From Nanobdellati archaeon (GTDB lineage Archaea > EX4484-52 > GLR71): DNA of 64,000 nucleotides. The position numbers and the translations under genes are program-made. Shown piece by piece: positions 530-63,127 of the stretch. Position 1 is the first letter of the stretch, and every line of letters begins with the position of its first letter. The notes under the pieces are model-generated. The model saw only the letters and a program-made list of their open reading frames with translations. It was not told the DNA's origin and ran no database searches. The stretch spans positions 54,581-118,580 of the forward strand of contig JAHYJR010000005.1 in the NCBI GenBank assembly GCA_019429005.1, in the 5' to 3' direction.

Positions 530-540
530 ATTTAATTTAA

Positions 541-604: not shown

Positions 605-625
605 CAATAAAAATCAATTATTTTT

Positions 626-877: not shown

Positions 878-926
878 TCCCCTTTTTTTATCAAAAATAT
901 ATATGCTAATGTGTATAATATAATGT

Positions 927-1853: not shown

Positions 1854-1889
1854 TTGTTAAAATAGTATTATAGGTGTAAAATAATTAAT

Positions 1890-4155: not shown

Positions 4156-4232
4156 TATAGTTTATCCCTATATCTATTTCATATATTAGATTGATACAAG
4201 TATATTTTGATATTGTTTATTAGGTTGGTTAT

Positions 4233-5141: not shown

Positions 5142-5150
5142 GTGAAATAT

Positions 5151-6116: not shown

Positions 6117-6128
6117 TGGTGTTTTTTA

Positions 6129-6779
6129 ATGAAATTATATAATCGTTGTGTGTATAAAAAACGTCAAGGTCAAGTCAATATTGATTTTATAGGTGGTTTT
6201 CTTCTTTTTATGGTTTCAGTCATTTATATCTCAACATCAGCTATAAAGATAATACCTTTATATCAAGAAAAGGTTGAATCTGATAATAATAGGCTAGAGC
6301 TTTGGACACTTTCTGAGCGTTTTATAAATTATGTTGAAAGTGAACGTTTTGTATTAGATCCTGAAAAAATGGATGACCTAACAACTATGAATTATGATGC
6401 AATCAAAAGATTATTGGGTGTTGATGAAACGAATAATTTTGTTTTAAGAGTGTATCAATACCCCATAATTACTACTGAAAAAGATATTAATGGTGATTAT
6501 ATTGGTATTGGATCATTTAGTGGTACAGATGTTATGTTCAATGTAACAGATACAGAGGTTTTAATAAATGGCAAATCTTTTGATTTAGGTGATGCTAAAA
6601 TATTATCAGAGCGTGTATATACTATTGATGAGATTGATCCTTATCAAAAATATGTCATTTTAAAAACAGTACTTATTGAAAAAGATGATATTTACGAGAT
6701 TAAGAAAAGTACAAGCCAATTAGTACGTTATAGTACCTATGATAATTTTATAACAAGTATAATAATAACGTATTTTTAG
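6129..6779 (+). CDS. Pilin-like minor subunit
   Basis: A 216-residue protein with a basic n-region ending in KKRQGQ, then VNIDFIGGFLLFMVSVIYIS, matching the class III prepilin pattern in which the KRQG/Q bond would be cleaved. The mature part begins with a long polar helix (about 48-75) and continues as a mixed alpha/beta domain without cysteine clusters. The ATG at 6129 follows a GGTG SD at 6118-6121 with good spacing. It lies 12 nt after the second platform gene and 56 nt before a large pilin-like gene, so it is probably cotranscribed. The family is not recognisable beyond the N-terminus; role as a minor pilin is inferred. Confidence 0.7.
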   Translation: MKLYNRCVYKKRQGQVNIDFIGGFLLFMVSVIYISTSAIKIIPLYQEKVESDNNRLELWTLSERFINYVESERFVLDPEKMDDLTTMNYDAIKRLLGVDETNNFVLRVYQYPIITTEKDINGDYIGIGSFSGTDVMFNVTDTEVLINGKSFDLGDAKILSERVYTIDEIDPYQKYVILKTVLIEKDDIYEIKKSTSQLVRYSTYDNFITSIIITYF

Positions 6780-6835
6780 TTGTATCTAATATGTTAAATA
6801 ATACGGTATGTATGTTAAATAATAATGGTGACCTG

Positions 6836-10368: not shown

Positions 10369-10480
10369 TATAATCTTATTTATCTATAATCTTATTTATC
10401 TATAATCTTATTTATCTATAATCTTATTTATCTATAATCTTATTTATCTATAATCTTATTTATCTATAATCTTATTTATC
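10369..10480. repeat. Tandem repeat, seven perfect 16-bp copies
   Basis: The unit TATAATCTTATTTATC is repeated seven times head to tail without a mismatch (7 x 16 = 112 bp), then decays (tataaactta). There are no spacers, so this is not a CRISPR array. Perfect identity implies recent slippage expansion or homogenisation. Confidence 0.95.
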
Positions 10481-10795
10481 TATAAACTTATATTACTATT
10501 TAATTATAGTAATATTGTATCATATATGTATATTTATATTAAATTATATTTTTATCTTAATATATTTTTAGTAATGTATAAACATATATATTTATGTTAT
10601 TATATTTAGATATGTTTATATTGAACTAAATATATATTGTTATTATAATTATATTGATATATCACCATATTAATTATATATATATATATATATATGTATA
10701 GTATACTAATATCTGTATATATTTATATTATATCAATCTAATTAGAACACGGTTTTAAAAATATTTTATTTTTAAAAAATAGTTTATAACCGGAA

Positions 10796-17300: not shown

Positions 17301-20300
17301 TGATTGATCTGGTAATACATATATATACGCTTCAGTTATATTGTATCCTTTAGCTGTTCCATTCACAGTTATGTTTTGGTATGATTGCAAATTGCTAAAT
17401 GATACTAATCCATTTATTGTTGTATTTTTAATGTAGAAATCTGAACCTATATCTATTAATGTTTCTGCATCAGTTGGATTTGATTGGTTTATGAACACAT
17501 CTTCAATTATAATATAATCTGTACCACTTATAATTAATGGAAGTGTACTGAAGTCATATGTGTTAGGTGTTCCATCATAATTTATTGTTACATCGTTGAT
17601 TGTAAATGACACCATTGTAATATTGTGTATGTTACTTAGATTATCTTTTATATTTAAAACTGTACCAATTTCAAGTATTGCTTTACCCTTTGTTTTGATT
17701 TCGACATCGTCTATTACAGGGAATCCTGTTTCATCAGTTATATTTAATATTAGATTTCCTGCATGTGGTGGTAATATTATAGGTGTTGATGTCATGTTTA
17801 TTATTGTTCCTGCTTGTGCTTCCGTAATCAGTATATCTGTGGTGTTTGTATAATAATTGGATGGTATGTCTAGTGCCGTCAATGTATTTATGCCTGAAGG
17901 CACATATTCAAATGTGTGTGTGTTGTTTACTGTATAATTGAGTAGATATGGTCCTGTTAAACCTATGATTTGTGTGTTATTTATTATGATTCCTCGCGGA
18001 TCTGATGCTGTAAGAATCAATACTGTTTTATTTATGTTGAATGTTTGATTATAGGTGATACCCGCTGTAGTTATATTTATATTACCAGCTGTATTTCCAC
18101 AACCTAGGCTTGATGCATTTACATTTATATCAAAATATCCTGTTGGGACTTCACTAAACATTGTTAAATTATTGAACGTTGTATTTGTATCATTGTTTTT
18201 GATACCTATTATGTTTGGATTTCGCTCTATATAGACTGTGGCGTTTGTTGTATTAGATAAATTATCACACGTTACATATACTTCAAGTTCTGTGCTAGTA
18301 AGTGATTTTATAAATGTCAAATTATTGAAGTAATGGTATAAACTGACTTTTGCATTTTCTATTGGTGATATTGCCATATCATAGTTTTGGCTGTCTTTAA
18401 CTTCAATTTCAAATACGGGTTCAATTACAAAATTATATGGGCTTGTACCATATCCTGTGCAACCTTGTTCACATTTTGTTATGTCTGTGTATTGGCTTGA
18501 ATGTGTGGTTATCTTATATGTGAGTGTGCTTGGTATTTTTGCACTGAAGTTTCCATATATGTCTGTGCTTTTATAATATGAGAATCCCTTAATTGTATCA
18601 TATATTATTATGTCTGCATTTTGTACGGGTTCATCGAAAAGTGTTTTAACTGAACCTGTTATTGTAATTGAACCATCAAGTCTTGGATTTATAACTATTG
18701 ATTGATTTGCAGGATATCCTATCCCTAGAAGACTACTATTCCATGCAAGGTATCCACTTTTATCTACAAGTATCTTATAATTTCCCGAAAGTCCTATCTG
18801 GTAATCAAAGTTACCATTTGAATCTGATTGTAGTCTGTATATTGTCGTATCATTTGAATTATATTGTATTGTCATGTTTGCATATGGTATTTTTACAATG
18901 TTATTGTTGTATATTTCAGAATCTGTAACAATACCTGATAATCTGATGTTTCCTGTCATTTGTATTACAAAATCACGAGGGTTTGTCGGACTTGCAATTT
19001 GTTGTTCAGTATTATTGAACAAGTAAAAGCCATCAGCTATATAATAAACGTTATAATTGAGTGTCCCTGGAACATTTATACCAAATTCACCATTTGTATT
19101 TGTTGTTGTCTTATATAATTTTGTGCTGTTTATGTCATCTACATATACGAACGCATTAACTAGTTCTTGTTTGACTTTACCTGTATTTTGATCAAGTACA
19201 GTTCCATTTATCCATGAGTTTCCTTTTATCGTAATGTCAACTATATTTGATACTTGTGTTGTAGTTTCGATTGTTGTAATTGTATTATAACCATTTTTTT
19301 CTGCAGTTAGATAATATTCGCTGTTACCTTTCATCCTTGTATTGTATTCACCTGTATTGTTTGTTATGAGTGCATATGTGAAATATCCGGATGGTGTTGT
19401 TACATACGCTGTTATATTTACAAGATTTGCAGGTATTTCTGCAGGGTTATATTCATCTGCATAATTAAGGTTGATATCTATAACTTTTCCAGAGAGTGTT
19501 GCAGTACCATTTAATCTGATATCACCAGAATAGTTTCCAGTTAATGCAAGTGGTGCAGTTGCAGTATATCCATCGGAAAGTATGGATAACGCGTAACCCG
19601 TATTATCTCTAATCTTAAACGAGAATTCGCCAGTATTATTTGTAAATGTTGTGTATTTTATATTCTGATCAAAATCTTCAACAACTGTTATTGTTGCGTT
19701 ATATATAGGTTGCGTATTCCAATAATCTGTTATTTTTGCATATACTGTTGTAGGACCTTCAAGTGTTGTGCTTATTTCTTCAAAATCACCATAAACTAAG
19801 TTATTGGTGCTACTTTCTCCAACTATTTTGGTATTATATTTATTATGTGTGATTTTGATTCTATATCCATTTGTATTATTAAGCAGAGTTTTTGGTACAT
19901 ATAATTCATAATATCCATTTACATCTGTCAATATTGTGTAGAAATATTTGTTGTCGTATCCAAAAGGGTTTCCATTGGAATCAACAATTGTAACATTTGC
20001 ATTTTGTACTTTTATCGTAGTATTGTATGTATCTCTAAGAGTTCCATAAATTTTTGCAGTACCTTTTATAGCAATATTAAGTATTTCATCTTGTCTTGAT
20101 GTATATGGTATATTATAAGAATATGTTGAACTTTTGTATGTATCATAACTTGTATGATTTATTGTCACATAATAACTAGTATTTGTAGCAGTGACACTTC
20201 CAAACATAAGTATATTTCCATCTGAATCTGTTTTACAGATATTATCAATGCATCTGTAATTACCATAATTATTAATTGTTTCATCTATTCCAACTTTATA

Positions 20301-20732
20301 GACTTTTACTTGAGCATCTTTTATCGGCATACTATTTGCAAAATCTTTTACCGTTATGTTAAAGCTTGAGTGTGTGTTTGGTATAACTTCTAGAGATATT
20401 GGGTTGTTCGTATAATAACAATTTGAACCATTTAGGACTGTTTGATTAACATATCCTACTGCGGCAATTTTTAATGCGTAACCATCTGCTGTTGTTATAT
20501 TTTCTGAAAAGATACCATTAGGACTTATAGTTGTTGTACTGATAACACCAAAAACACCGCTTGAGTTACATTCAAGTATGTCTATAGTTCCGGCTGTTGG
20601 GTATGAGAATCCATCTATTATGTCTTTAAGACTTCCCTGAACATTATAATCTACAGCGTATGTTGTATTTATTCCATATATTGCAAATAAGGCTAGCAAT
20701 ATTGTGATAATAAGAAGTATTTTAGATTTCAT
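11328..20732 (-). CDS. Giant membrane-anchored surface protein with carboxypeptidase-regulatory-like repeats
   Basis: A 3134-residue exported protein. Residues 1-26 are a Sec signal peptide (MKSKILLIITILLALFAIYG). Most of the ectodomain is a series of roughly 80-100-residue beta-sandwich repeats of the CarboxypepD_reg/PEGA type, each built as V/I-x-G-x-(V/L)-x-D followed later by T(D/N)xxGxY and ending in a hydrophobic (G)Y motif. Asn-Thr/Ser sequons are very frequent, suggesting heavy N-glycosylation. Near the C-terminus come a CVGCG motif with a Ser run, a stalk domain, a cysteine cluster (CGNGICDIDEDCSCGDC), a single membrane helix (about 3000-3020) and a cytoplasmic tail of about 110 residues with a proline stretch and a predicted coiled coil. 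SD GGGAGGT precedes the ATG, which overlaps the stop of the upstream winged-helix gene. Likely an adhesin or S-layer-type protein. Confidence 0.85.
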   Translation of the reverse strand: MKSKILLIITILLALFAIYGINTTYAVDYNVQGSLKDIIDGFSYPTAGTIDILECNSSGVFGVISTTTISPNGIFSENITTADGYALKIAAVGYVNQTVLNGSNCYYTNNPISLEVIPNTHSSFNITVKDFANSMPIKDAQVKVYKVGIDETINNYGNYRCIDNICKTDSDGNILMFGSVTATNTSYYVTINHTSYDTYKSSTYSYNIPYTSRQDEILNIAIKGTAKIYGTLRDTYNTTIKVQNANVTIVDSNGNPFGYDNKYFYTILTDVNGYYELYVPKTLLNNTNGYRIKITHNKYNTKIVGESSTNNLVYGDFEEISTTLEGPTTVYAKITDYWNTQPIYNATITVVEDFDQNIKYTTFTNNTGEFSFKIRDNTGYALSILSDGYTATAPLALTGNYSGDIRLNGTATLSGKVIDINLNYADEYNPAEIPANLVNITAYVTTPSGYFTYALITNNTGEYNTRMKGNSEYYLTAEKNGYNTITTIETTTQVSNIVDITIKGNSWINGTVLDQNTGKVKQELVNAFVYVDDINSTKLYKTTTNTNGEFGINVPGTLNYNVYYIADGFYLFNNTEQQIASPTNPRDFVIQMTGNIRLSGIVTDSEIYNNNIVKIPYANMTIQYNSNDTTIYRLQSDSNGNFDYQIGLSGNYKILVDKSGYLAWNSSLLGIGYPANQSIVINPRLDGSITITGSVKTLFDEPVQNADIIIYDTIKGFSYYKSTDIYGNFSAKIPSTLTYKITTHSSQYTDITKCEQGCTGYGTSPYNFVIEPVFEIEVKDSQNYDMAISPIENAKVSLYHYFNNLTFIKSLTSTELEVYVTCDNLSNTTNATVYIERNPNIIGIKNNDTNTTFNNLTMFSEVPTGYFDINVNASSLGCGNTAGNINITTAGITYNQTFNINKTVLILTASDPRGIIINNTQIIGLTGPYLLNYTVNNTHTFEYVPSGINTLTALDIPSNYYTNTTDILITEAQAGTIINMTSTPIILPPHAGNLILNITDETGFPVIDDVEIKTKGKAILEIGTVLNIKDNLSNIHNITMVSFTINDVTINYDGTPNTYDFSTLPLIISGTDYIIIEDVFINQSNPTDAETLIDIGSDFYIKNTTINGLVSFSNLQSYQNITVNGTAKGYNITEAYIYVLPDQSKHVDLTLKNNELVLFIEGSSVQGANVTLWSGPVGSTIAQNSTGSNLQVIGITDVGGDGENVTFRGLLWGTYNISISLDGHNNYTGEITLDQSTNFSDGFRYVELDLQQTFTRIIVRDSSTQSDLNNINVSMVKENNPAENYTNITSGGEVLLGDGTLLSGTYNITINGTKEGYSLTQYQVNLTLGSQNIQTVYIDENLFEILVTSDGINPLQGANVSIWTDSSMTSIINNAQGIALTALTDINGIVTFNKLLSEAWALLSINMSGYTQWNDTTIVIDYGNNTYPTPVNLGGTTIINVYIYDEINKIITATTEGTIINLLNSTDDIVMSTTDSDKDGYVQFVSTTLIPGNHKISADGRHNGYNLNETELFSITIGTVTTKNATLTENYLVINVTNGTAQVDDNVIVSLLENDILPYTSDITNQTTNSTATLRRVVVGDPGEVYNLVIDGTQIGYNSTIIQNYQTQLTWGRNNQTIVIEENKLHLNITSNGSNIEFDMYGNGTTITFNGMALESDPFNATFKKIPYNNYTLNIDGTMQGYENYTHPQLIEINKTTTSYTININMTVLEVNVTNATYYPIGDANVTVYMSDNVTAAVDAMNNTLSGLTFADGTRVFERVLPCMDCNISVIVSNKTDGQNSTRFSIFAGDNLSIWIDPPLNDDPLNTNNPSLMGLDESVMFYDYHKGINRSNIYKSIIGDNWNITIQATAGGSGIPLANVSIYKGDSNFLDEYLIASNLTNSGGNITFTLPDGFYDIRIDGQFAGYGIDLIEKLPVGKLVFSEANTNEFGEIQIKADSKYYVRVDAKGYSQYDSLDTYGVEGGLYNGTYTNLTELNGKEKINLTGLATVEGFITDKYCTHNDCQFVEDAVVSFGQYSSGELQNVRYTTKTDSNGYYSIAASPYIPGATLYNDLKQNYDILIEADGRYLKDVLKNNVLYNSSTSEYNFSLIGQGTVSGTIYNKQLFDEKNIQTPIVNVGIKFKKGISKYYESITDIVGHFIISINPLFSPWDLTLYVTNFETTITDLFNGTETDMELYMYQGGAAINRFNVQSDTNLTLANISITFNPYYSCIDETTSCILTTNENGTVQRHMEASTQNAKVDGGYLGYSVANIMYTSITNQENEINVTLNTTKVNLIFKDESLGSVENLGIAMSLYNCTNVQNQKGLCYFNNITNDNGSVMFSLVPTGTYSISFASNIFAYDGNNTFNLTVTDQMSGKNNEITYLLNNTEILIKFVNDTGSTVENISLSLSGPTGLVYSGTSGTGITVSNIPYGQYTVVPNAMQILSLGFVNKSYLLEAIFGEDEINGNNQTMTLNDTRIKFNITNETGAFEDVNVTIYKNTDIALNGFNKTLTGLTDNNGILTFNNVITDKYWNLNSITPNYKYVIDADNLGFGYYESNINIQENIPENGLNIINKLNITPVTVYMNLYDVKDMYNISRETIKDDTIFIYVWNDTGLTVDAQGQTLIKSTAIGELDFKYLYKNNYSAIGTSVNGTYNIFQNKHIFETKTTNFVTTDVYMNRSKYAYLNITVKNQQGTLLNNAKLTLMYNTVILNVSTNMTTNITTSTNIAGLGMIGVNTTKYTEALLIQAEYTISDKTYITQSSIFNISESELKQITVTIIQDIPATTQTTGCVGCGSSSSSGFSIPLPYAGSKDSKGTEADFMSYTFKKTPDQIRKTLLYEVRTMIKSLTGQIVTEDDMNTISEITNEVYNDISAKRYQTLENGKYIVTLEINYTGKKIIDQLIISEQLPDSLKLDKVTVLANNGKITVNTLLNSINIMFENVSSDEDIITIRYKINDYTFKSNGFLEFSKPLIFATGFYIPPIIISDSVCGNGICDIDEDCSCGDCAASPLCLVDTTEDGFIWAKYLAILALLGVSTIIIYKYLKNRKLMNYESKYDSIVNEKPELSPILPPPSPPFMSESVNEIRSFERTIENNIESIPRLVAEQTRTFENTVSNDLNNINKQVMSDINQIRDVVSEDTEQIIPRRLDQI

Positions 20733-32068: not shown

Positions 32069-35000
32069 CTAATTTATTTTATTATTATTATTTGGATTAT
32101 TTGTTTTTTCATCATCTTTTTTGGATTTATAGCTTTGTTTCCATATTAAATAGATTATTGTGAGGAGGATAATAATATCTAAAATAAGAGATCTATCTAT
32201 ATCAAAAGAACCCGATTTATCTTTAACTTCTTTAGCATCTTTAACCTCGAAAGTTCGCGTTGATATGGCTTCTCGTCCGGTATAAGTTACAAATGCTTCA
32301 AATGTATACATACCTTTTTCTGTGCTTTCTGGAAGGTAAAGGCTTAATGTTCTTTCTTTTTTATCTACAACAGCAATGGTGTCTGTTGATTCTGTAATCA
32401 GTTTACCACTCATAGTTTTTATTGCATAATTTATAACAACATCAACTTTTGCTTTAGGACCACCCATATTTTCCATTGTTAATAGTGCCATAACAGGATT
32501 TCCAACTGTTACAGTTCTTGTGATAATGTCCACAATTATATCAAATAATGGTATATTAACATCTGTATACATCTCGGTTCTAATGTGTTGCTGATAACTT
32601 GGATCATAACCACCAATTATTGTTGGAAGTAACCATGAACCACCACCCAATATTGTTGCATTATAAATGATAGTAATTGTATCATTATTATATAATAATC
32701 CATCCCAATTTGTATAATTATATGTGAAATTATAATGGTAAATGTCAACAAGAACACCATCTGGTAATGTATCACTTCCAGGTGCACCTAGGTAATAATC
32801 CGAATCATTTAAGAATTGATACGTCTGATCTGTTGACGCATTATAATATGTGATATTCTTATTATTTATTGTTGCACTATTCGGCAAGAAATCTGCTATC
32901 AATATTTCACCCATTGGATTTAATCCGATTTCTTGTATTATTATTGTGACTGTTATATTCTGTGGATTTACAGGATTAATCCATATATATTTAGTACCTC
33001 GAAGCACAGCTTCAGACGCCATAATTGTTTTAGTTATATAACTTTCATTAATATTTTCATTTATATCAATAACAGACGCATTTGTATACATTGTCCTGTT
33101 TTCACCAGGTGTTAGTTTAGCTGAAACCATCAAATATTTAAATTCAATAGAATCATTTTCATCTAAACCAGAACCGATATTTGTCAGAGACATATTTGTT
33201 ATATTGACCTGTATCTGTGTATTGTTTGTTCCAATAAGATCAATAATTTCAATGTTTAATCCTGTTGTGATTTCTGTAATTTCAGCTGTTGTGTAGTTCT
33301 TGAAATTAACAGTTATACTTGTTGAGTTATAGAAATCATAAGGTATTTCATCAGTGATGTTTATTGAATATACTTCATTTTGTGTACTGTTTATTTTGAT
33401 TGTGGTTGTCACATTTATTGTCTCATTCTCGTCTGAGACGATGATGTCAGGTGATAATATTTTGGTTATCTGTGTTGAAATACTATTTTGAGTTTCATAT
33501 GTAAAATATAATATTTCAGTTGAATTCATATTTCCAGAAGTGTCGTTCGCATATACCTGCCACCTTATTGTCGCACCTACTGTTGAATTGACCCACTTAC
33601 TCACATTAGACCAGTTACCTGTTCCTGTCATGTTGACATAACTATCATTCACAAATGTTCCAGTTCCATTATCAAATGAAAATATGTATCCTGAAAGTGC
33701 ACTATCTGACCAGTAAAGGCTGAACAGGACATCAATCCCTGCACTTGTTGAGTCTGTCTGGTTAAGTGAATATAATGGTGCGGTTACATCTTTGATTGTA
33801 ATATTAACAGTTTCTGTAACATTATCTGTAATATAAGCACGGTATGTTGTCGCATTATAATCGACAAAAAATTCCCAAGTTGTATCTCCTAGACCTGTAG
33901 CATTCACAGTCCAATTATTGGTACATTCATCACCTGCACGCATATCAGATAAACAATTAGAATATAGTCCATCTTGTGGATTATCGGATGTTGTATAAAA
34001 TGGTCTTGCACCAACAGTCATAGAAATAACTTTTGTAGTTACATCAAAGGTCCATGAACTAAATGTGGTATTACCATCACCATCTCCTGCAAGGATACTG
34101 ACATTCCATGTACCAATCATATCTATTACATAATACGATGAATTCCAATATGTAGTCCAGAGTGAACTGTTATAATACATTGTTCCATTTTCATTATTTA
34201 TTACTTTTGTGCCTAAGGGATTTATCAATGTGAAATTAACCCATTCAATACCGGGTCTATTATAATCACTGACAATTGTATTTATCGTGATATTATTCCC
34301 ACCTATTGGCTGGTATGGATATGTCTGATTAGTTTCTATTACCGGTGGTGCATAAGCAAGGTCTGTAACTGTTCCATACCACCCCCATTGACTATTAATA
34401 TATGTTGAATCTGGTAGTGTTATGACCTTAAAATAATTACTATCATTAGTTTTCCAACAAGAGACCCATTCAGTTTCTGCAAAATAATCTATATTACCAT
34501 AAGTCCGTCCATCTGTTTTATTGCAGATGATTGAATCATAATCTACAATACCAAGATTTACGGCTGTAGAGCCACCTGTTATATGATTTCGGATATTAGT
34601 TGCTGTACCACTTCCCCAACCACCATAAGGTGCTGAACTATCTCCAAAGGTCATATCACCCAATAGTGAATCATGGTTTGCTGTTATTTTATTGTCAAGA
34701 TCATAGAATGCTCCATTTACAAATAATTCTGCATGCATTGTATCTCCAATCCTAATTGGATCTTCCCATAGAATTTTAATTTCATTATAATATCCTAATG
34801 AATTAAACGCAGTTATTGTTGCATTATATTCTATAGTTAATGCATCATGAACAATCCATGTCCCAATCCATTGTCCTTCATAAATAGTACCGTCTGTTAA
34901 ATTTAATGTGATTGTTTCAATCCCACCCATATCAATAGTCATTAATACAATTCCTTGTGAGTCTTTAGCACGAATATCAAAATGCATTGTATCATTATTG

Positions 35001-38000
35001 ATTACACTTTTAGGCCATAATTTAGTATCAATAAATACAGGTCCAATTGATTCTGTTTTATCTTCTTTTTGTTCAGGATCTAAAGTCGCATTAAATTGTC
35101 CGCATTCACCATCAAGACAAGTTATTTTACTTTCAAATGTAAAAAACTCATTTTGAGATACATTTGTCGGTATTGTAGGGGTTACTAATTCTACATTTAT
35201 ATGTCCCCATGGCACAAACCACGAGGTTTGGTTAGACTTAGAAACTGTGTCATCATTTATACACGTTCCAGTTATATTCCATTGACCTGAATCCGTTATA
35301 TTAATCCCAGAAGGTAATGTATATATCCACCAATCTCCATCTGTAGATGTTGCATTATTTGCGTTTAAAAATGTGGTATCATCAATTATATTTTTTACAA
35401 GGTATGTTGCATTTGTGATATATTGTCCACCGTCAGCAGTACAGTTCACTCTAATTTGAGTTATATTTTCATAATATGAATAATTACAAATACCCCATTC
35501 AGAACTGCTATTATAACATTCAACAGCCCCTATTATTGGTTCTGAACTGACAGATATTATTGTGCTATTTTCTCCAGTAATACTATCTTCATCTGTAATA
35601 TTTGTTTTAATTATGTATGCCCCATTTGAAGTTGGTGCATTAAAGGTTATGTTGTAATATCCAATATAATTTGTTCTGGGACCATATTCAATTGCAAATG
35701 TAATATTATTTATTTCAGCAGTCTGCCATATATTATCTGTCGTAAAATTAATACGATATTGTAGGGTATTATCAATACCAAGACCACATCCCGACTCAAG
35801 AAGTGTATCATTATAAACTTCACACCAGCTAACATTATTTTCTGTTGATACAAAAACAGTAAAATTTGTTCCTGTTGGTATTGTTGCATACCACACAGGT
35901 TTCACAGTCAAAAGTGTTCCGGGTATATATACTAAATCCGAATCATAAGTACCATTTTCATTATATTGGATTGTATATTTTACAGTTATATTGGTTGGAT
36001 AATAATCATCATTCAGTGCATATGCACTATGTGTTATACGTGTCACTTTACTATTTTTTTCAGGATTTCCAGCATTATCTATAGTCTCTTCAAGAACATC
36101 ATTCACATATATTGTCCACGTTGTACCATCAAATAATACATTGACTTTATATTCTGTATTATCACTGATAACAACGCCAGTATCAATAGAATATGCTGTA
36201 TTTCTAACATCACTAAATGAGGGATTACAGATCCCATCATAAACATATAAATGATTATTGCCTTCATAACGATATATTGTAAATATACCCAGATTACAAC
36301 CTTCAGTACCTACAAATGTTACAATTCTTGAATGTCTGTCCAAGAATGATGATTTTGTCTGAAATAAGGAATAATTGAAATAAAAGGTATAATTTATAGT
36401 ATCTGGAGGTGTTTCAAAATCATGATAAAAACCATTATTTGGAACATTATATGTTGAGATACCCCAATCACTTTTTGCATATGCGGTAAAAATATTCTTA
36501 TCTACATCCGGGCCGAATTCACCGCTAACTAAGGTCTCTATGTATGGATACATCATATGACTGGTAGCTAATTGATCTGCCGTATTATTCATTGTCTGGT
36601 TTTGAACATATGTGCCAGATACCCAATACGTACTGTTTTTCCAATCATAAGATGCGGTGTTATTCATCAGACTATCATTCAAATATACATTAACTCTTTG
36701 ATCTATAACAGCATTTGTTGAACCTTCATATAGTGCAAACCCTGAAACAAATACATCTTCATTAGCTGCATAAATGAGTTTATTCGGATTTAAACTGATT
36801 GTGATATTATCTGAATTGAAAAAGTGATGGTGTGTCGCTTCTGTATTGATGTTTCCAATTGTATCGTTACATTTATACCAAAAGTTATAAGCTATCTTAT
36901 TTGAGATACTAGTATAATTATATGCGTGTGTTATTGTTTCCTGTCCAATTTCAAAATCAGTTCCTGTACCATATTCAAAGTCACTTATTGTATCGTTCCA
37001 TTGACAATTTGCATTTGTATCTGTTGTGATGTTTAACCAGATCCATGTATTTTCAGTGTATATGTTTGAATCATTATTTGGGTATACGATAGTTATTATT
37101 GGTGGAAATATGTCTGTCATTATATTTGGTTGTGGGAATATTCCAGAATGTATTGTAGGCATCCATAAATTAAGCGTACTATAATCGCCTTTTGTAAAAA
37201 CAAGAAGATAATTTATTTCATCTGTTGAACTTGCAGATGTTGGATTATATTCAAGGCGTAAGCCTTCATTATCATTTGTTGAATCGTTCCAAAATCCAAC
37301 AGTACTTATCGTTATATTTTCGGATTCATTAAATCTGACTAAAGATATAAAGCTTGTATTTGTTGAATCTTCTGTTATTGAATTGTCAAATATCAATGAA
37401 TAATTGCTGATAAGCATACTATAATCAGTCCATTGGTCTGTTGGTAAATCGGTTATAAGTCCCGTAGAACCATTTTCAAGTGCATAATTATCATCAATAG
37501 CAGAAGAACCCAAAGTTCCAGTAATGATTGGGAATAGTGAATTTATATTTGTTATATTTTCATCAAAGTTATGTATCCTATAGTTAAGATAATCAGATGT
37601 ACTATTAATAATTTTTACAGTGATATTAAATGTGGTTGTATAAACTGTAGTGATTTTTGAACGTATCATAAACTCATTACCCCCTGATTGAACTTCCCAA
37701 CCTGAACCAAAATCAAAATAACTGTTAGTAGGTGGTGAAGCAGCACCATCATCAAGGAAAAAGGGTCCACCTGTAACGGAATCTCCTGTATTTTCTGTAA
37801 GTTCAACACCTATCCAGAAATTACCTGATGTTATTTCAATATTATATGAAGATAGGTCAATTGTCGCCCAATTAGAATAAAAAGAAGTAATTGTTGTATT
37901 GAATGGCTGTATCAAATTATTTCCTGGCACGCCTTCATTATCTTCATAGATATGTATAATATATACTGTTGATCCAACTGTATTTATATCATAAAGTTGA

Positions 38001-41000
38001 ATATTTGTACTCATAATTTTATAAGGGTAATTCGTTGTGGATGCTGTGAACTTACATGCAATTGTATCTCCAATAAATCTATTTGTATAAAATGATGACG
38101 CTGCACCATCATCATTTTGTAATGTCTCTTCTGTTGGACTATCTGGTACAAAACGATATTCTATTTGCATATCTAGTTCAATTTCAGCTAAATTTTCACC
38201 TTCTTGTGAAAATGTCTTAGATGTATATTTAGAAGTGACCATATTGTTTATTACAATATCACCTAATCCAAATAATGTATTATCTGAAAGTGTTTCAATA
38301 TTATATGATTCATTTAATTCTTTATTTTCCAAAAAGATGATAGCTTGTGTTGTATTTATAGTTCCATTATATACAATTATTAGATTTTCGCCTTCAATAA
38401 TATAATCCTCCGTATTATCAGCATCATAATCTAATTTATATGCTGAAACATTTGATCCTGAATAAATGTGTATTGTGGTGTTCTCAATTAAAGAACCATA
38501 AGGATTTGTTGCGTTAATTTTTATAGTATAAATTCCAGGTGCGTCTGTTATTTGAGATGTCCAATTACCATAATATCTACTTGAACCACTACCACTATAA
38601 GTGAGATTTATCGTATTAACAATGTCATCTGTATTATTAATTATACTTAAAATAACATCTCCGTCTGTAACATTTCCTGCTTGATTTGTAACTTTTGTAT
38701 CTATGAAAATTGTATCATTTATTGTAAAAAGTTTATCTAAATATAGGTAGTTTGAATCTCTATAAGTTTCAATAATTATATTTGTTGGTAGTGGAGATAC
38801 AACGTCAATTTCTATGTTTGGGTATGGGTCATCATAATCAATATAACCTTGTGTGTCATTAACCCAAGAAGTATTTACTGATAAGGTCCCACCTGTTGAT
38901 CCTACATTGAGTACAACACCATAAATACTTCCACCCGAACCACAAACTCCTGTTGAATTTGATGTAGATATATTTGATGATGTTCCATTTGGATATTTTA
39001 TTTCAATCCATGTGCTGCTTATTGGATATGATTCAATCGTTATGGTGTGGTTTATACAAATTTCAGTATTTATACTTACTGTTGTTGCATTAACTGTAGT
39101 TTGATTTGTTTTTGGTTTTATATTGACTGTTATTGGACTATTAACTGTATTTCCTGTAGTAGTACATTTTTTTGTAACTGAATCATCGCATGCAAATGCA
39201 TACCAATTTTGTGCACCTGAACCTGTACTTACCCAAGTACAAGTATTTTCAGAACCATCTGCAACTGTGGATGACGACACACAATATGCACCACCATCAC
39301 AAGTTGGGGGTAATCCACCAGTAACTGCATCGGTTTTACATATGGCTAAGTACCAAGTATCACCATTTATATCTGTTGCTGTTGCGTTAAATGTAACTGT
39401 ATTTCCAAGTAGTACAGGATCTGGATTGTCTTTGGGAGTTACAGTAAAAACTGGCGGTGCTGGTGCTGCATCAATCCACCAAATGTTTGTTGTAATTTTA
39501 TTTTGTTTATTTAAAATCCCAGTTTGTAATGTTAATATCACTGGTGCATTATACCATTCAGATGTATGGGTCACATTTAACGTATAATTCATCTGATACT
39601 GTTGTCCATCTAAAAAATAACTTTCATTCCATCTTGTCCTTGCAAACAGTTCATCTGGTCTATCCCATAATTCAAAAGATCGTGTTGTTAGGTTATCTTG
39701 ATTAATAAGTAAAGAAAGTGCTGGGTCTGAAATATTATACGATTCTAATCCTGATGTTAATGATAATTCTAAAGTATCATTTTCATAAGTTGTATTTATG
39801 CGTATATTGTAATTTATGACTGTTATTTCAGATTCACTATATTCATTGTTACCTACATTTGTAATTGTTGGTGTTACAAGAATCTCTCTCCAATCTGTTT
39901 CAAGGTAATATTCTAATGCAATCTCAATTCTATTGTTTTTATCTTTGAATGTTGTAAATCCTGTCAAGTTTGTATATGTTATATTATCTGTTGTTGCAAT
40001 CCATTCCCATGTGCCATCATCAATACAATATTGATACCATACTGTTGATTTTAATCTTGCACAATAACTTGTGTATCCCCAATATGCATATTGATCGTTT
40101 GTTATCTGAAAACCATTTGTTAGGTTGACATAATAACTATCGTATGTATTCCAAAGATGATATATACTCTCTACATATTCATATCCTATATCTGTTGTCG
40201 GATCAATATTTACAGGGTATGCTCTTAATGGGTCATTCAACCACATATAAGGTGTTTTTATGGTTATAAATATAGAATTACCTTGTTTTTTAAGTTGATA
40301 TTTTAACTCTGTGTAATCATATTCATTGTCGTAAGCATACGGTTTTTGCATGTAGAATAATGTATTTTCTGTGTTTTGTTCTTTGAACAAAATCTTTTTT
40401 GTAGTTTCAATTGTGCTTTTTTTATCCCATAATGCGTCGTTGATATAAATATCTAAATTTGCAGTATAATCAATAAGAAAATCCATATCAAGTGTAATGT
40501 TATTTCCTGCCAGAACATCTGGATGCGGTTGCGTTGGTTTTTGGTCTAGTATCAAATTCTTTTCTAACTTATCTGTTTTTACTGTATATGTAAGATTGTA
40601 ATTGTTTCCAAAAATGTTAGGATATACAAATGTATCACCTTGTTCAACACCTATAATTGGTTGTGTCTTATTTATCTCTTGAGTGTATCCATCTGAATTT
40701 CTATAGTTTAATGATATCGGCTGGTATGTAACATAACCTTCAGCAGGATTGGTTTTATTTATTGTTTCTTGACTAAATTTAAATTTAATTGCATCTAAAT
40801 TTAGAGGGTCTTGTTTAAAATATGTCTTATGTGTATTGTTTTCAACACCATAATCATATTCTAGTTCATCTTGTGGTTCTGAAGTTATCATCGTATTTGC
40901 TGTAATATATTCAGTTCTATTATAATAATTTTTTAGTTTGCCTATGTATGTTGTGTATGTCCCATCTCGGTTTTCAAATTTATCAAAGTTTTGACCACGT

Positions 41001-42493
41001 TGAGATACGGTTTCTTTAGTTTTTTTTTCAGTTTGAACTTCGGTTTTAGTTTGATTTTCGGAGTCGTTCAAATTAATCATATTCAAAATGATACTTGAAC
41101 TATTAATCATAGTTCTATCAAAACTATAGACTTTGATTGTAACTTCATTTTCTCCAGAAGTATAATTTATAGGTACAGTCCATTTGTATTCCCATAAATC
41201 CTCAGAGCTCATTTCTAATTCTATATCTTTTCCGTCTATGGAAAGTATTGTTTTTTTAATAATTTGGCTATTTCCTAATGCATAAAATGAAATCGTTTCA
41301 CCTTGATTTATTTCCGTTTTATTTGTGTATAGGTTTATGTTTGCAGGTTTATTTTCATATTGTATTTCTAAGAAAATGCTGTTTATGTTAATGCCTTTTT
41401 GTTTTAGATTATTATCTGAATCTTGTGTTTGATTTATCGTTTCATTGTTTGGTTGAACTTGTGTTGTTTTTGTAGATTCTTTATTATTTATAACATTATT
41501 TTCTTCAGTTGTATTCATCTCATCTGAAGTTATATTTTGTTCTGTGCTTGTGTTTACTTCAGAATTATTAACTGTATTATTTTCCATATCGATTTGTTCA
41601 TCTGTACTATTATTTTGAGCTACATTAGCGTTTGTTATGTTTTCAATATTTGTAATGTTATCTATAATTTCTAGATTTTTCGTGTTGGTTATATTTTTGT
41701 TAGTTTCATTTGAAGAGTCCGTCGTTGTATTTGTTTTGTTATTTATTGTATTTTCAATATTCAGATTGTCATTTGTATCATTTTCGTTTTCAAGATTATT
41801 ATGTATTGTAATATTTTCATTTGATTCATTCAAGGGTTCAATTCCAATTATGTTTTCATCAATACTATCGTTTAAGCTACTGTTTTGTTTATCTTTATTT
41901 GTTATTCCATTTAACGTTTCATTTGTTTGTTCTGTGTCATCTGTTCTTAGCACATTACCTGTTATCAAATTAGCACTTTCTTTTTTTTGCACGAATTCAA
42001 TACGTATTGTTGCATCGTCAATGTTTTGTATTGCTTGTATATGTGTAGATAAATCACATATAGATTGTTGTGGTTTTGTTGGTACTTCAAAATTACAAAT
42101 ATGTATATATGTTCCATTTATTTGATAATATATATTGCCATCTTGCTTAATGTCAGAATACCAATCTAGCACCAGGTTTAATCCTATTATATTAACAAGA
42201 TTTTGATTTTTATCTGAGAACGAGAATTCAATATATGAAACAGAATCATTTAGGCAGTCGTTTTGTGTTAGGAGTATGTCTTTTATTAATAATTGACGGT
42301 TTGGATTATTGTCATTGTTACATATCATAATATTTTGTGGACTTAATTGGTATTCTTGTCCTGTATTTGATGCTAATAAATAACCTGTAAGATTCGTAAT
42401 TGGACCCATTAAAACTAATAATAATAAGAATATTAGGAGAATGCTGATGCTGGCATAAATTCTATATTTCGTGTCGATATCTAGATTATACAC
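32069..42493 (-). CDS. Giant surface protein of 3474 residues
   Basis: The N-terminus has a single hydrophobic segment (about 12-40, YASISILLIFLLLLVLMGPI) acting as signal or signal anchor. Residues about 165-370 are an Asn/Thr/Glu low-complexity stretch (NETNKNITNTKN and similar), probably an extended glycosylated linker. There follow many Ig-like or CARDB-like beta modules, a lectin-like region (about 2000-2150, with TFVGTEGCNLGIF and TTWTIYVNDVLEE), a long Thr/Asn-rich part, and a C-terminal membrane helix (LDIIILLTIIYLIW) with a Lys/Asn tail. A block near the C-terminus (GTKYIWINP, DYYLGAP, DPSYQQHIRTEMYTDVN) resembles the equivalent block of protein A, linking all three. The start is GTG with a GGTG SD 7 nt upstream. 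Confidence 0.8.
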   Translation of the reverse strand: MYNLDIDTKYRIYASISILLIFLLLLVLMGPITNLTGYLLASNTGQEYQLSPQNIMICNNDNNPNRQLLIKDILLTQNDCLNDSVSYIEFSFSDKNQNLVNIIGLNLVLDWYSDIKQDGNIYYQINGTYIHICNFEVPTKPQQSICDLSTHIQAIQNIDDATIRIEFVQKKESANLITGNVLRTDDTEQTNETLNGITNKDKQNSSLNDSIDENIIGIEPLNESNENITIHNNLENENDTNDNLNIENTINNKTNTTTDSSNETNKNITNTKNLEIIDNITNIENITNANVAQNNSTDEQIDMENNTVNNSEVNTSTEQNITSDEMNTTEENNVINNKESTKTTQVQPNNETINQTQDSDNNLKQKGININSIFLEIQYENKPANINLYTNKTEINQGETISFYALGNSQIIKKTILSIDGKDIELEMSSEDLWEYKWTVPINYTSGENEVTIKVYSFDRTMINSSSIILNMINLNDSENQTKTEVQTEKKTKETVSQRGQNFDKFENRDGTYTTYIGKLKNYYNRTEYITANTMITSEPQDELEYDYGVENNTHKTYFKQDPLNLDAIKFKFSQETINKTNPAEGYVTYQPISLNYRNSDGYTQEINKTQPIIGVEQGDTFVYPNIFGNNYNLTYTVKTDKLEKNLILDQKPTQPHPDVLAGNNITLDMDFLIDYTANLDIYINDALWDKKSTIETTKKILFKEQNTENTLFYMQKPYAYDNEYDYTELKYQLKKQGNSIFITIKTPYMWLNDPLRAYPVNIDPTTDIGYEYVESIYHLWNTYDSYYVNLTNGFQITNDQYAYWGYTSYCARLKSTVWYQYCIDDGTWEWIATTDNITYTNLTGFTTFKDKNNRIEIALEYYLETDWREILVTPTITNVGNNEYSESEITVINYNIRINTTYENDTLELSLTSGLESYNISDPALSLLINQDNLTTRSFELWDRPDELFARTRWNESYFLDGQQYQMNYTLNVTHTSEWYNAPVILTLQTGILNKQNKITTNIWWIDAAPAPPVFTVTPKDNPDPVLLGNTVTFNATATDINGDTWYLAICKTDAVTGGLPPTCDGGAYCVSSSTVADGSENTCTWVSTGSGAQNWYAFACDDSVTKKCTTTGNTVNSPITVNIKPKTNQTTVNATTVSINTEICINHTITIESYPISSTWIEIKYPNGTSSNISTSNSTGVCGSGGSIYGVVLNVGSTGGTLSVNTSWVNDTQGYIDYDDPYPNIEIDVVSPLPTNIIIETYRDSNYLYLDKLFTINDTIFIDTKVTNQAGNVTDGDVILSIINNTDDIVNTINLTYSGSGSSRYYGNWTSQITDAPGIYTIKINATNPYGSLIENTTIHIYSGSNVSAYKLDYDADNTEDYIIEGENLIIVYNGTINTTQAIIFLENKELNESYNIETLSDNTLFGLGDIVINNMVTSKYTSKTFSQEGENLAEIELDMQIEYRFVPDSPTEETLQNDDGAASSFYTNRFIGDTIACKFTASTTNYPYKIMSTNIQLYDINTVGSTVYIIHIYEDNEGVPGNNLIQPFNTTITSFYSNWATIDLSSYNIEITSGNFWIGVELTENTGDSVTGGPFFLDDGAASPPTNSYFDFGSGWEVQSGGNEFMIRSKITTVYTTTFNITVKIINSTSDYLNYRIHNFDENITNINSLFPIITGTLGSSAIDDNYALENGSTGLITDLPTDQWTDYSMLISNYSLIFDNSITEDSTNTSFISLVRFNESENITISTVGFWNDSTNDNEGLRLEYNPTSASSTDEINYLLVFTKGDYSTLNLWMPTIHSGIFPQPNIMTDIFPPIITIVYPNNDSNIYTENTWIWLNITTDTNANCQWNDTISDFEYGTGTDFEIGQETITHAYNYTSISNKIAYNFWYKCNDTIGNINTEATHHHFFNSDNITISLNPNKLIYAANEDVFVSGFALYEGSTNAVIDQRVNVYLNDSLMNNTASYDWKNSTYWVSGTYVQNQTMNNTADQLATSHMMYPYIETLVSGEFGPDVDKNIFTAYAKSDWGISTYNVPNNGFYHDFETPPDTINYTFYFNYSLFQTKSSFLDRHSRIVTFVGTEGCNLGIFTIYRYEGNNHLYVYDGICNPSFSDVRNTAYSIDTGVVISDNTEYKVNVLFDGTTWTIYVNDVLEETIDNAGNPEKNSKVTRITHSAYALNDDYYPTNITVKYTIQYNENGTYDSDLVYIPGTLLTVKPVWYATIPTGTNFTVFVSTENNVSWCEVYNDTLLESGCGLGIDNTLQYRINFTTDNIWQTAEINNITFAIEYGPRTNYIGYYNITFNAPTSNGAYIIKTNITDEDSITGENSTIISVSSEPIIGAVECYNSSSEWGICNYSYYENITQIRVNCTADGGQYITNATYLVKNIIDDTTFLNANNATSTDGDWWIYTLPSGINITDSGQWNITGTCINDDTVSKSNQTSWFVPWGHINVELVTPTIPTNVSQNEFFTFESKITCLDGECGQFNATLDPEQKEDKTESIGPVFIDTKLWPKSVINNDTMHFDIRAKDSQGIVLMTIDMGGIETITLNLTDGTIYEGQWIGTWIVHDALTIEYNATITAFNSLGYYNEIKILWEDPIRIGDTMHAELFVNGAFYDLDNKITANHDSLLGDMTFGDSSAPYGGWGSGTATNIRNHITGGSTAVNLGIVDYDSIICNKTDGRTYGNIDYFAETEWVSCWKTNDSNYFKVITLPDSTYINSQWGWYGTVTDLAYAPPVIETNQTYPYQPIGGNNITINTIVSDYNRPGIEWVNFTLINPLGTKVINNENGTMYYNSSLWTTYWNSSYYVIDMIGTWNVSILAGDGDGNTTFSSWTFDVTTKVISMTVGARPFYTTSDNPQDGLYSNCLSDMRAGDECTNNWTVNATGLGDTTWEFFVDYNATTYRAYITDNVTETVNITIKDVTAPLYSLNQTDSTSAGIDVLFSLYWSDSALSGYIFSFDNGTGTFVNDSYVNMTGTGNWSNVSKWVNSTVGATIRWQVYANDTSGNMNSTEILYFTYETQNSISTQITKILSPDIIVSDENETINVTTTIKINSTQNEVYSINITDEIPYDFYNSTSITVNFKNYTTAEITEITTGLNIEIIDLIGTNNTQIQVNITNMSLTNIGSGLDENDSIEFKYLMVSAKLTPGENRTMYTNASVIDINENINESYITKTIMASEAVLRGTKYIWINPVNPQNITVTIIIQEIGLNPMGEILIADFLPNSATINNKNITYYNASTDQTYQFLNDSDYYLGAPGSDTLPDGVLVDIYHYNFTYNYTNWDGLLYNNDTITIIYNATILGGGSWLLPTIIGGYDPSYQQHIRTEMYTDVNIPLFDIIVDIITRTVTVGNPVMALLTMENMGGPKAKVDVVINYAIKTMSGKLITESTDTIAVVDKKERTLSLYLPESTEKGMYTFEAFVTYTGREAISTRTFEVKDAKEVKDKSGSFDIDRSLILDIIILLTIIYLIWKQSYKSKKDDEKTNNPNNNNKIN

Positions 42494-52349: not shown

Positions 52350-52745
52350 TTGAAAGAAAATGCAATCGATAAAACGACTTCAAAAAAGACCCCTGAAAAG
52401 GCTTCTGTGAAAGCATCTCCTAAAAAGGCTGCAGTAAAAGCATCTCCTAAAAAGGCTGTTGATAAAGCATCTTCTAAAACAGTTGTTGAAAAACCAACTG
52501 AACTTATGGCACATAATTTAATACCTAAACATGAGATTCTGATTGATGCTCAAGTAAAAACACTTCTTGAAAAATATCATATTGAAAAAAGTAATTTACC
52601 ACATATTTTTGATACAGATGTTATAGCTAAACAGCTTGGTGCTAAACCCGGCGATGTTATCTGTATAGAACGAGCATCAAAGACTGCAGGAATCTCTTTA
52701 TATTATCGTCTTGTTGTTTCTGAAGAAGGTGAAGATTATGATTAA
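52350..52745 (+). CDS. rpoH: RNA polymerase subunit H with a Lys/Ala-rich N-terminal tail
   Basis: Archaeal RNA polymerase subunit H, equivalent to the C-terminal part of eukaryotic Rpb5. The conserved domain is residues about 55-131 (LIPKHEILIDAQVKTLLEKY, KQLGAKPGDVICIERASKTAG, YYRLVV). Before it is a 50-residue extension of Lys/Ala/Ser/Pro built from a 27-bp DNA unit repeated three times (52407-52487, KASPKKA(A/V) pattern), resembling a histone H1-type basic tail. Subunit H is normally about 75-85 residues. The TTG start is supported by an AAGGT SD 7 nt before it. The end overlaps the B'' start by 8 nt. Confidence 0.9.
   Translation: MKENAIDKTTSKKTPEKASVKASPKKAAVKASPKKAVDKASSKTVVEKPTELMAHNLIPKHEILIDAQVKTLLEKYHIEKSNLPHIFDTDVIAKQLGAKPGDVICIERASKTAGISLYYRLVVSEEGEDYD
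52407..52487 (+). repeat. 27-bp repeat, three copies, in rpoH
   Basis: Three 27-bp units at 52407, 52434 and 52461, the first two nearly identical (one difference in the first codon and another in the last), the third diverged. They encode VKASPKKAA, VKASPKKAV and DKASSKTVV. Confidence 0.85.
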
Positions 52746-60092: not shown

Positions 60093-60190
60093 ATAAGTAT
60101 ATAATACTTTCAGTTGATATAAATAATGTGTTTTTATTATATCTGAAGAATATTATTAAAATATTAAATAAAAAATATTAGTGATTTACA

Positions 60191-60610
60191 ATGCCAGGAC
60201 TTTTCGCAGGAAGGAATATCAAAAAGAAAAGACAAGAATCCAGATGGAAAGACATCTATTATAAACAGAGGGTTCTTGGTCTAAAAGTTGCACAGGATCC
60301 TCTTAAAGGTAGTCCTCAAGCTAAAGCTATCGTTCTAGAAAAAAGGAATATTGAAGCAAAACAACCGAATTCAGCAATGCGAAAATGTGTTAGAATACAA
60401 CTTACAAAAAATGGTAAGCAAATAACAGCTTTTGTTCCTGGTAATGGTGCTATAAGCCATATACAGGAGCATGATGAAGTTCTTGTAGAAGGTATTGGTG
60501 GAACAAAAGGACGAGCTAAAGGAGATATTCCAACAGTAAGATGGCAAGTTATTAAAGTAAACAATCTATCTCTTAATGCTTTATTAAAAGGAAAAGTTAA
60601 GAGAGGTTAA
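60191..60610 (+). CDS. rps12: Ribosomal protein S12
   Basis: 139 residues, the archaeal S12/S23e form, starting MPGLFAGRN. The decoding-centre motif [10 protein letters not shown] is at residues 57-66, and [20 protein letters not shown] follows. No inserted or missing segments. The stop is 2 nt before the S7 GTG, so translation is coupled. Confidence 0.96.
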
Positions 60611-60612
60611 TC

Positions 60613-61590
60613 GTGATTTTTATGATGGATTCAAAACAAGATAAAATCGAAACTCCGGTAACAAATGCTCCGGTAACAAAAACAAAAGTAGCTAGTACAA
60701 AAGTAGCTAGTACAAAAGTAGCTAGTACAAAAGTAGCTGATACAAAAGTAGCTGATACAAAAGTAGCTAGTACAAAAGTAGCTGATACAAAAGTAGCTAG
60801 TACAAAAGTAGCTAGTACAAAAGTAGCTGATACAAAAGTAGCTGATACAAAAGTAGCTGATACAAAAGTAGCTAGTACAAAAGTAGCTAGTACAAAAGTA
60901 GCTAGTACAAAAGTAGCTAGTACAAAAGTAGCTAGTACAAAAGTAGCTGATACAAAAGTTGTTAAAACAAAGGCAATAGCTGTAGATATAACTCCAGAAT
61001 TATTATTATTTAATAGATGGTCTACTAGTGCAATTGTTGTAGAAGATCCGGGTCTTAAAGGTTATATTAATTTAAAACCTATGATTGTTCCAAAATCAGG
61101 TGGAAAATTACAGAAAAAACAATTTTATAAATCTAATATGCATATTGTTGAAAGGCTTTTAAACAAGCTTTTTGTTTCAGGTCATAAAGGTAAGAAACAT
61201 AAACTTTCATCTGGACAGAATGTTGGTAAGACTATGGTAGTTTGGAATATTATTGAAAACGCATTTGATATTATAGAGAAAAAGACTACTAAGAATCCTG
61301 TTGAAGTTCTTGTTCGTGCAATTGAGAACAGTGCTCCTATTGAAGAAGTATTATCTTTCCAGAAAGGTGGTAGTTTTACAAGAGAACCTGTTTTAACATC
61401 ACCACAAAGACGTGTTGATCTTGCATTAAGATTTATTGTACAGACTGTGTATTCAAAAAGTAAGATGAAAAAGAAAAAAGCTTATGATGCTCTTGCTGAT
61501 GAGCTTATCGCTGCATACAAAAATGAAACAGCATCTGCTGCAGTATCTGAAAAGATTAGACGTGAGAAAGAAGCACACGGTGCAAGATAA
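60613..61590 (+). CDS. rps7: Ribosomal protein S7 with an 18-copy N-terminal repeat extension
   Basis: 325 residues. The conserved S7 core starts near residue 120 (LLLFNRWSTSAIVVEDPGLK) and ends IRREKEAHGAR; its length (about 205) is normal for archaea, with the S7 signature NPVEVLVRAIENSAP. The first about 118 residues are an extension in which TKVAS or TKVAD is repeated 18 times plus a degenerate 19th copy. The GTG at 60613 is favoured by SD GAGAGGTT at 60601-60608; ATGs at 60622 and 60625 are alternatives but lie too far from the SD. S7 binds 16S rRNA in the small-subunit head; the tail would add many positive and a few negative charges. Confidence 0.94.
   Translation: MIFMMDSKQDKIETPVTNAPVTKTKVASTKVASTKVASTKVADTKVADTKVASTKVADTKVASTKVASTKVADTKVADTKVADTKVASTKVASTKVASTKVASTKVASTKVADTKVVKTKAIAVDITPELLLFNRWSTSAIVVEDPGLKGYINLKPMIVPKSGGKLQKKQFYKSNMHIVERLLNKLFVSGHKGKKHKLSSGQNVGKTMVVWNIIENAFDIIEKKTTKNPVEVLVRAIENSAPIEEVLSFQKGGSFTREPVLTSPQRRVDLALRFIVQTVYSKSKMKKKKAYDALADELIAAYKNETASAAVSEKIRREKEAHGAR
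60682..60951 (+). repeat. 15-bp minisatellite, 18 perfect copies, in rps7
   Basis: The unit ACAAAAGTAGCTAGT or ACAAAAGTAGCTGAT encodes TKVAS or TKVAD. In order: S S S D D S D S S D D D S S S S S D. No other base differs among the 18 units. A degenerate 19th copy (TKVVK) follows at 60952-60966. Confidence 0.98.
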
Positions 61591-61738: not shown

Positions 61739-63127
61739 ATGTGTTTAATGATGTATTATCGAAAACAGATTTTATTTATACTTTTAATTCTATTTGTAAT
61801 AGTAAGCAGTGGGTGTACAACAATAAATGACAATACTGATTTAATAGATACTTTCTTTTTAGAAAACACTTATATAACTGGACTAATCCCTCAATGTGAA
61901 TCTGGTCTTGTTGACAAAGATTTATGTTATCTTGATATCGCAATTCAGACAAAAAATGTATCTTATTGTTTTAATGTAGGTAGTGTCAATTTAATTCTAG
62001 AATGTATAACACGTTATGCGATTAAGACAAAAAATCCTAATATTTGTACAACGTCATATAGGGTTACAGATTCTTCTCGTGTGAACAAATTTACAAATGA
62101 TTACAGGTATAAATGCTATTATCATTACGCTCTTGAAACTGATGACAAATCAATTTGTGAATTTATTGAACCTCAGAATGAAGAAGCTAAACTGCTTAAA
62201 AAGTACTGTCTTGCAATCTTTGATAAAAACATAGATGCTTGCAGTTCTCTTGAGGTTGATTATTATATTAGCAATAAATATGATAAAATCCAAGGAGATT
62301 GCTTGATTGAGGTTGCAATACGCACAAAAGATGCGAAATTATGTGAATATGCTCTTTTACTTGAAAATGGTCCTTACGGTGTCTATCTTGATCGTCGTAT
62401 GGATGGTGTTTTTATATCTGATTGTTATTCAAAAGTTGCTGAAGCTGTAGGTGATAAAGGTCTATGTGAAAATGCAATAACATATCCTTACAAATATATA
62501 CCTTGTGTTGGCACATTCATACAGCCTGAAGAAGTCACAGATTTTTGCAACACATATACACCAGATTATATTTTAAGTTATAATATGGATACACAATGTG
62601 TAAAAGATCTTGTTCTTGGAAAAGACAACCATTTTTGTGATAATATAATTGATAAATCTGATAAAATACAATGTTTTGATACTGTATGTTCTGAACCTTA
62701 TACTGATTGTAAATCTAAGTACAAACTTTTGCTTGATGAAACCCTTTGTGTTCAGACAACGAAATATGATTTAAACACAAAATCTGAAGATTATGGACAT
62801 ATCTGGAGCGGTTATGCGGGTGGTGCTTGTATAGCAGATATTGCTCAGAAAACAAATAATCCAGTTCTTTGCGAAACAATAACAAACGAGGCATACAGAA
62901 ACAAATGTTATGTCGATTATGCGTACATGACAAAAGATTCAAAATATTGCATAAGTTTGACAATAACAGATGCAAAATCTGACTGCTATACCCCATTTGC
63001 AATATATGATATGGATGAGACTTATTGTCAAAAGATAGGTGTAGATACAAGTTTGATTCAACCTTGTCTTGACAGAATCGCATCAATTCGTGGTTCTGAA
63101 ATCAATTCCAAAACAGAATCTGTGTAA
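61739..63127 (+). CDS. Cysteine-repeat lipoprotein
   Basis: 462 residues. The signal ILFILLILFVIVSSGC has a lipobox-like VSSGC with Cys26 as the likely lipid-modified residue. The exported part holds many cysteines in a degenerate repeat of about 30-35 residues: C-(Y/L/I)-x-(D/E)-(I/Y/V)-A-x-x-T-(K/D)-(N/D)-x-x-(L/I/Y)-C, seen for example as CYLDIAIQTKNVSYC, CLIEVAIRTKDAKLCE and CYVDYAYMTKDSKYC. Paired Cys spacing suggests one disulfide per helical repeat. A start at 61739 gives a slightly long n-region; the ATGs at 61748 and 61751 are alternatives. The family is known in shape (helical Cys repeats) but I cannot name a function; extracellular binding is plausible. Confidence 0.72.
   Translation: MCLMMYYRKQILFILLILFVIVSSGCTTINDNTDLIDTFFLENTYITGLIPQCESGLVDKDLCYLDIAIQTKNVSYCFNVGSVNLILECITRYAIKTKNPNICTTSYRVTDSSRVNKFTNDYRYKCYYHYALETDDKSICEFIEPQNEEAKLLKKYCLAIFDKNIDACSSLEVDYYISNKYDKIQGDCLIEVAIRTKDAKLCEYALLLENGPYGVYLDRRMDGVFISDCYSKVAEAVGDKGLCENAITYPYKYIPCVGTFIQPEEVTDFCNTYTPDYILSYNMDTQCVKDLVLGKDNHFCDNIIDKSDKIQCFDTVCSEPYTDCKSKYKLLLDETLCVQTTKYDLNTKSEDYGHIWSGYAGGACIADIAQKTNNPVLCETITNEAYRNKCYVDYAYMTKDSKYCISLTITDAKSDCYTPFAIYDMDETYCQKIGVDTSLIQPCLDRIASIRGSEINSKTESV

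Follow-up and report, generated by a model that had tools for sequence, protein, structure and literature searches.

An in-frame 15-bp minisatellite encodes a long N-terminal tail on ribosomal protein uS7 of a Nanobdellati archaeon

Ribosomal protein uS7 is a primary assembly protein of the 30S subunit and lies beside the mRNA exit. In archaeal 30S complexes it walls the mRNA exit channel on one side (PMC7005279), and in eukaryotes its N-terminal extension touches eIF2-alpha and affects initiation, with truncation altering fidelity (PMC9958902). Long histone H1-like tails are carried by mosquito RpS6, where the tail is retained in the subunits, and by Drosophila L22 and L23a (PMC548281). In the part of a survey of prokaryotic ribosomal proteins drawn on here (PMC6821194), low-complexity regions are described as common and mostly C-terminal, those of archaea being found chiefly in S3, S24, L10 and L12 with uS7 not singled out, and the Lys-rich subset is suggested to bind nucleic acid. 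On a non-ribosomal protein, the Lys-rich KPAA repeats of AlgP change copy number in Pseudomonas isolates (PMC9239181).

Within a 64-kb stretch of DNA from a Nanobdellati archaeon (the window, to which all coordinates refer), the gene for uS7 encodes an N-terminal tail that lengthens the protein by ~60% and is built largely from one 15-bp unit. It is an extreme case among the additions already known and not a new system; the extreme regularity of the array and the repeated gain of tails in related lineages make it moderately interesting. Like the Lys/Ala-rich prokaryotic regions in the same part of the survey (PMC6821194), it is a terminal low-complexity segment on a ribosomal protein, but those are mostly C-terminal whereas the present tail is N-terminal, on uS7 and encoded by a near-perfect DNA array. 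The RpS6, L22 and L23a tails (PMC548281) are likewise long, Lys-rich and confined to one lineage on a conserved ribosomal protein, the Drosophila ones also being N-terminal; they differ in being eukaryotic, on other proteins and of Ala/Lys/Glu composition, and that paper does not present them as a perfect minisatellite. The eukaryotic uS7 (RPS5) extension is at the same end of the same protein, but is an irregular curl of about 60 residues not described as a repeat array (PMC9958902) and, according to the title of a paper cited there, is negatively charged in yeast, against a net charge of +13 here. The AlgP KPAA domain (PMC9239181) shares in-frame Lys-rich repeats and disorder with the uS7 tail, but is C-terminal and on a DNA-binding, non-ribosomal protein. 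We found no archaeal uS7 minisatellite tail in the open-access literature.

The uS7 gene (rps7; 60622–61590, forward strand, stop codon included; 322 residues) is present as a single copy in the genome and matches Pfam PF00177 well above the cut-off (1e-30; 106.7 bits against 24). The best NCBIfam families by far, NF003106 (205.9 bits against 225; E = 4e-61) and TIGR01028 (177.3 against 200; E = 2e-52), both fall below their equivalog cut-offs, which are naming thresholds and not a structural trait of the uS7 family. The gene lies immediately 3' of rps12 (uS12; 60191–60610, forward; PF00164, 2.6e-41), in the standard archaeal order, and the cluster also holds rpoH, a split rpoB, a split rpoA and the gene of an L7Ae/L30e-family protein. 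In many archaea nusA is found between the L30e-family gene and rps12; in the present cluster it is absent from that interval (60093–60190).

The initial annotation had placed the start of uS7 at GTG 60613, and this had to be corrected. The GTG is part of a Shine–Dalgarno sequence, GTGAT (60613–60617, forward), which is complementary to the 3' end of the organism's own 16S rRNA (AUCACCUCCU) and stands 4 nt before ATG 60622; GTGAT or GTAAT precedes the uS7 ATG with equal 4-nt spacing in many members of the phylum. From this pairing and the conserved position, GTG 60613 belongs to the ribosome-binding site, and ATG 60622 is the coding start. The protein then reads MMDSKQDKIETPVTNAPVTK-(TKVAS/D)18-TKVVKTKAIAVDITP-ELLLFNRW..., with a conserved core of 197 residues (60997–61587, forward), to which the first residues of short relatives (MSDDIKLFDRW and MTEIKLFNTW) align. 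The long N-terminal extension had been given as ~118 residues; its length is nearer 125. As had been claimed, there is no usable start after the repeat: the first in-frame ATG, GTG or TTG 3' of the array is ATG 61081, past the invariant residues F130, W133 and P153. Internal initiation is very unlikely, since this codon lies inside the invariant core.

Tandem Repeats Finder (TRF) reported a 15-bp unit in 18.5 copies at 60682–60959 with a score of 458, the top-scoring array in the window. Cutting the sequence unit by unit gave 18 near-perfect in-frame units (60682–60951, forward; (TKVAS/TKVAD)18), each consisting of ACAAAAGTAGCT followed by AGT or GAT and otherwise identical, exactly as first noted. 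Eleven are ACAAAAGTAGCTAGT (AGT) and seven are ACAAAAGTAGCTGAT (GAT), and the two follow each other in the order SSSDDSDSSDDDSSSSSD. Neither the longest repeat nor the number of runs in this order exceeds that of shuffles, so that it appears random. The array is flanked in phase by two diverged units, TPVTN and APVTK (60652–60681, forward), which match each other at 13 of 15 positions and the main unit with 7 and 9 mismatches, and which are possibly an older edge of the array. At the 3' end are the degenerate units TKVVK and TKAIA (60952–60981, forward), with 4 and 7 mismatches, respectively. Outside the uS7 gene the unit is found neither in the rest of the 1.08-Mb genome (18 forward matches, against none for a reversed-pattern control) nor in the viral contigs searched, and nothing thus points to a mobile repeat that has spread. 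The predicted mRNA structure has a z-score of −2.4, but the centroid is mostly unpaired and the unit contains the palindrome TAGCTA; we consider this structure a by-product of the unit. Between genes at 10369–10491, a 16-bp unit (TATAATCTTATTTATC) forms a separate array (7.7 copies; 99% matches).

The uniformity of the units extends to all codon columns. For this peptide, with codons drawn as in the genes of the window, where for instance GTA accounts for 35% of Val and GCT for 30% of Ala codons, the probability of such uniformity is ~10^−20. Codon bias is insufficient to account for this, and the identity is therefore at the DNA level and recent. The recent slippage-like expansion proposed at the outset is in this way well supported by the sequence. 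With a unit length that is a multiple of three and 18 copies that are near-identical beyond codon bias, the array is an in-frame coding minisatellite. The same identity suggests that copy number has changed, as judged from one consensus assembly.

The tail is rich in Lys (24 of 125 residues), Thr (24), Val (23) and Ala (21), with Lys at every fifth residue. AlphaFold predicts that the core is folded and the tail disordered, with pLDDT of ~36–46 over most of the latter's length. The segment is thus terminal, biased in composition, predicted disordered and borne by a ribosomal protein, as expected of a low-complexity ribosomal protein tail. The histone H1-like model NF038053 scores 19.5 bits, below its cut-off of 80; the resemblance is one of composition only.

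The comparison within the phylum covered 34 genomes of one order. Most of their uS7 proteins start within about 5–10 residues of the core, and uS7 is short in every genome of the same family with a complete N-terminus, so that the nearest relatives are essentially without a tail. In one sister genus (g10) the tail is built from a degenerate unit, roughly TETKQKPSEIK, in 0 (L021), 1 (L008), 2 (L006 and L009) or ~3 (L016) copies, and genus g4 has a Lys-rich but non-repetitive tail of ~45 residues. Relatives among a wider set of named genomes were found by an alignment-based search, a single core sequence used as query having given none; those nearest in uS7 belong to DPANN and carry the labels Nanohalo-/Nanohalarchaeota and Aenigmatarchaeota. 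A small single-order phylum next to these would suit the lineage named EX4484-52 (PMC9765267), which is probably that of the present genome. Two of the named genomes have long tails: Aenigmatarchaeon CSMAG_1110 (L124; 2135–2500) has 122 Pro/Ala/Lys residues including a 63-bp tandem duplication of 98% identity, and Nanohaloarchaeon AB_1215_Bin_137 (L115; 2255–2500) has an 84-residue Lys/Glu low-complexity tail. Both resemble the present tail in being long, N-terminal, of low complexity and on an archaeal uS7, but differ from it in sequence and composition and have two long units at most. Shorter tails occur in L161 and L172. Apparent long upstream frames in L130, L163 and G053 were excluded, as the full frames have no convincing start signal.

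On the uS7 core tree the presence of a tail requires 7 changes, at least 5 of which are forced by well-supported branches. All the tails fall within a clade on the Aenigmatarchaeota/Nanohaloarchaeota side, where 10 of 41 rows are tailed, compared with 0 of 46 outside it (Fisher p = 0.0003, the rows not being independent). Because one tail shows no sequence relationship to another, they appear likelier to have been gained repeatedly than lost repeatedly, and the Pro/Ala-rich nature of the 122-residue L124 tail makes a common biochemical role doubtful. Comparison with close relatives, which had been recommended, shows the nearest to be essentially tail-less and comparable tails to exist in related archaea. 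The statement that no S7 with such a tail has been described holds in that we found no paper on a similar archaeal uS7 tail; it was nevertheless overstated, given those related archaea and the Lys/Ala-rich or repeat tails of ribosomal proteins already reported (PMC548281 and, in the part drawn on here, PMC6821194).

A second tail is found 8 kb upstream, on the RNA polymerase subunit Rpo5 (rpoH; 52350–52745, forward; PF01191, 4e-24 over residues 52–122). It comprises 52 Lys/Ala/Ser/Pro-rich residues and contains an array of ~3.3 copies of a 27-bp repeat (52392–52493, forward; TRF, 84–85% matches). The TTG start is in the register common to relatives (TTG AAA GAT GAA...), which makes an insertion separating the start codon from the core the probable origin of the tail, though a start at the internal ATG 52506 is still conceivable. 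Two relatives (L095 and L096) have a shorter Lys-rich Rpo5 tail. With one composite query, uS7 and Rpo5 were the only proteins in the genome convincingly matched as bearing Lys-rich repeat tails; a query of the Lys/Glu type, run without a positive control, matched nothing in the genome.

The explanation that we favour, and consider probable, is that an in-frame minisatellite, grown by slippage, encodes a translated, disordered and cationic tail where the 30S head is permissive, and that this tail is close to neutral or of slight use. Between the start codon and the conserved core, a short segment rich in Lys and Thr would have been amplified through replication slippage or unequal recombination (crossing-over). 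The N-terminus of uS7, located on the 30S head next to the mRNA exit channel, would tolerate a flexible polycation of net charge ~+13; the tail would stay on the ribosome and contribute at most a weak, non-specific affinity for rRNA or for emerging mRNA. That it is no dedicated device is most likely, although the confinement of all uS7 tails to one clade could hint at a lineage-specific use. By analogy, the position of uS7 at the archaeal mRNA exit channel and the effects of the eukaryotic extension make an influence on initiation possible. This end of a universal protein can accept unconstrained sequence, and may offer a natural test site for how ribosomes tolerate or use tails.

The same clade restriction, the regular Lys spacing, the weak compositional match to NF038053 and the second Lys-rich repeat tail in the same gene cluster could instead point to a selected, functional polycation that binds rRNA, mRNA or, in the manner of H1, nucleoid DNA, with the AGT/GAT (Ser/Asp) variants tuning charge or mimicking phosphorylation. 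We regard this as possible but rather doubtful: the NF038053 score is far under its cut-off, tail sequences vary between lineages and are missing from close relatives, and the Ser/Asp order is indistinguishable from random. Somewhat less credence still attaches to a contingency-like locus, at which frequent changes in array length would give heterogeneous ribosomes within a population. The near-identity of the units, the graded series of copies in the sister genus and the rearranging KPAA repeats of AlgP (PMC9239181) are in its favour; the array length, however, comes from a single consensus assembly, and in-frame units would permit graded change but no on/off switching. Another reading seems to us distinctly improbable, namely that evolution in this DPANN clade has turned again and again to the uS7 N-terminus as a fast-evolving site for tails, and that the number of repeats tunes ribosome behaviour in step with the similar Rpo5 tail in the same gene cluster, so that the ribosomes of different cells differ. 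If true, the tuning would act on mRNA exit or initiation, or would tether ribosomes to RNA or the nucleoid.

Two further accounts would remove the tail from the protein or the array from the genome. Absence of the tail from mature uS7, through internal initiation or proteolysis, is very improbable in view of ATG 61081 lying within the core and the Shine–Dalgarno sequence being placed before ATG 60622 as in relatives, and nothing was found in its favour. Cleavage is still conceivable; for comparison, the mosquito RpS6 tail stays on the ribosomal subunits (PMC548281). False expansion or collapse in assembly has to be considered for a draft genome of 15 contigs that is 93.6% complete, but is hardly credible: the unit variants are interspersed, the frame is kept, the array lies inside a 118-kb contig and its longest exact self-repeat is 73 bp. 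Given that length and the AGT/GAT order, every 74-mer in the array is unique and longer reads or k-mers resolve it. A false array is therefore unlikely, with the exact number of copies taken from one consensus.

Several other genes in the window were recorded. Downstream of uS7, an ORF of 462 residues (61739–63127) is lipoprotein-like, with many regularly spaced Cys and internal repeats, and matches no Pfam or NCBIfam family. Two giant ORFs of 3134 and 3474 residues on the reverse strand (11328–20732 and 32069–42493, respectively) resemble surface or secreted proteins and lie near pilus/type-IV-filament-like genes at 2–6800.
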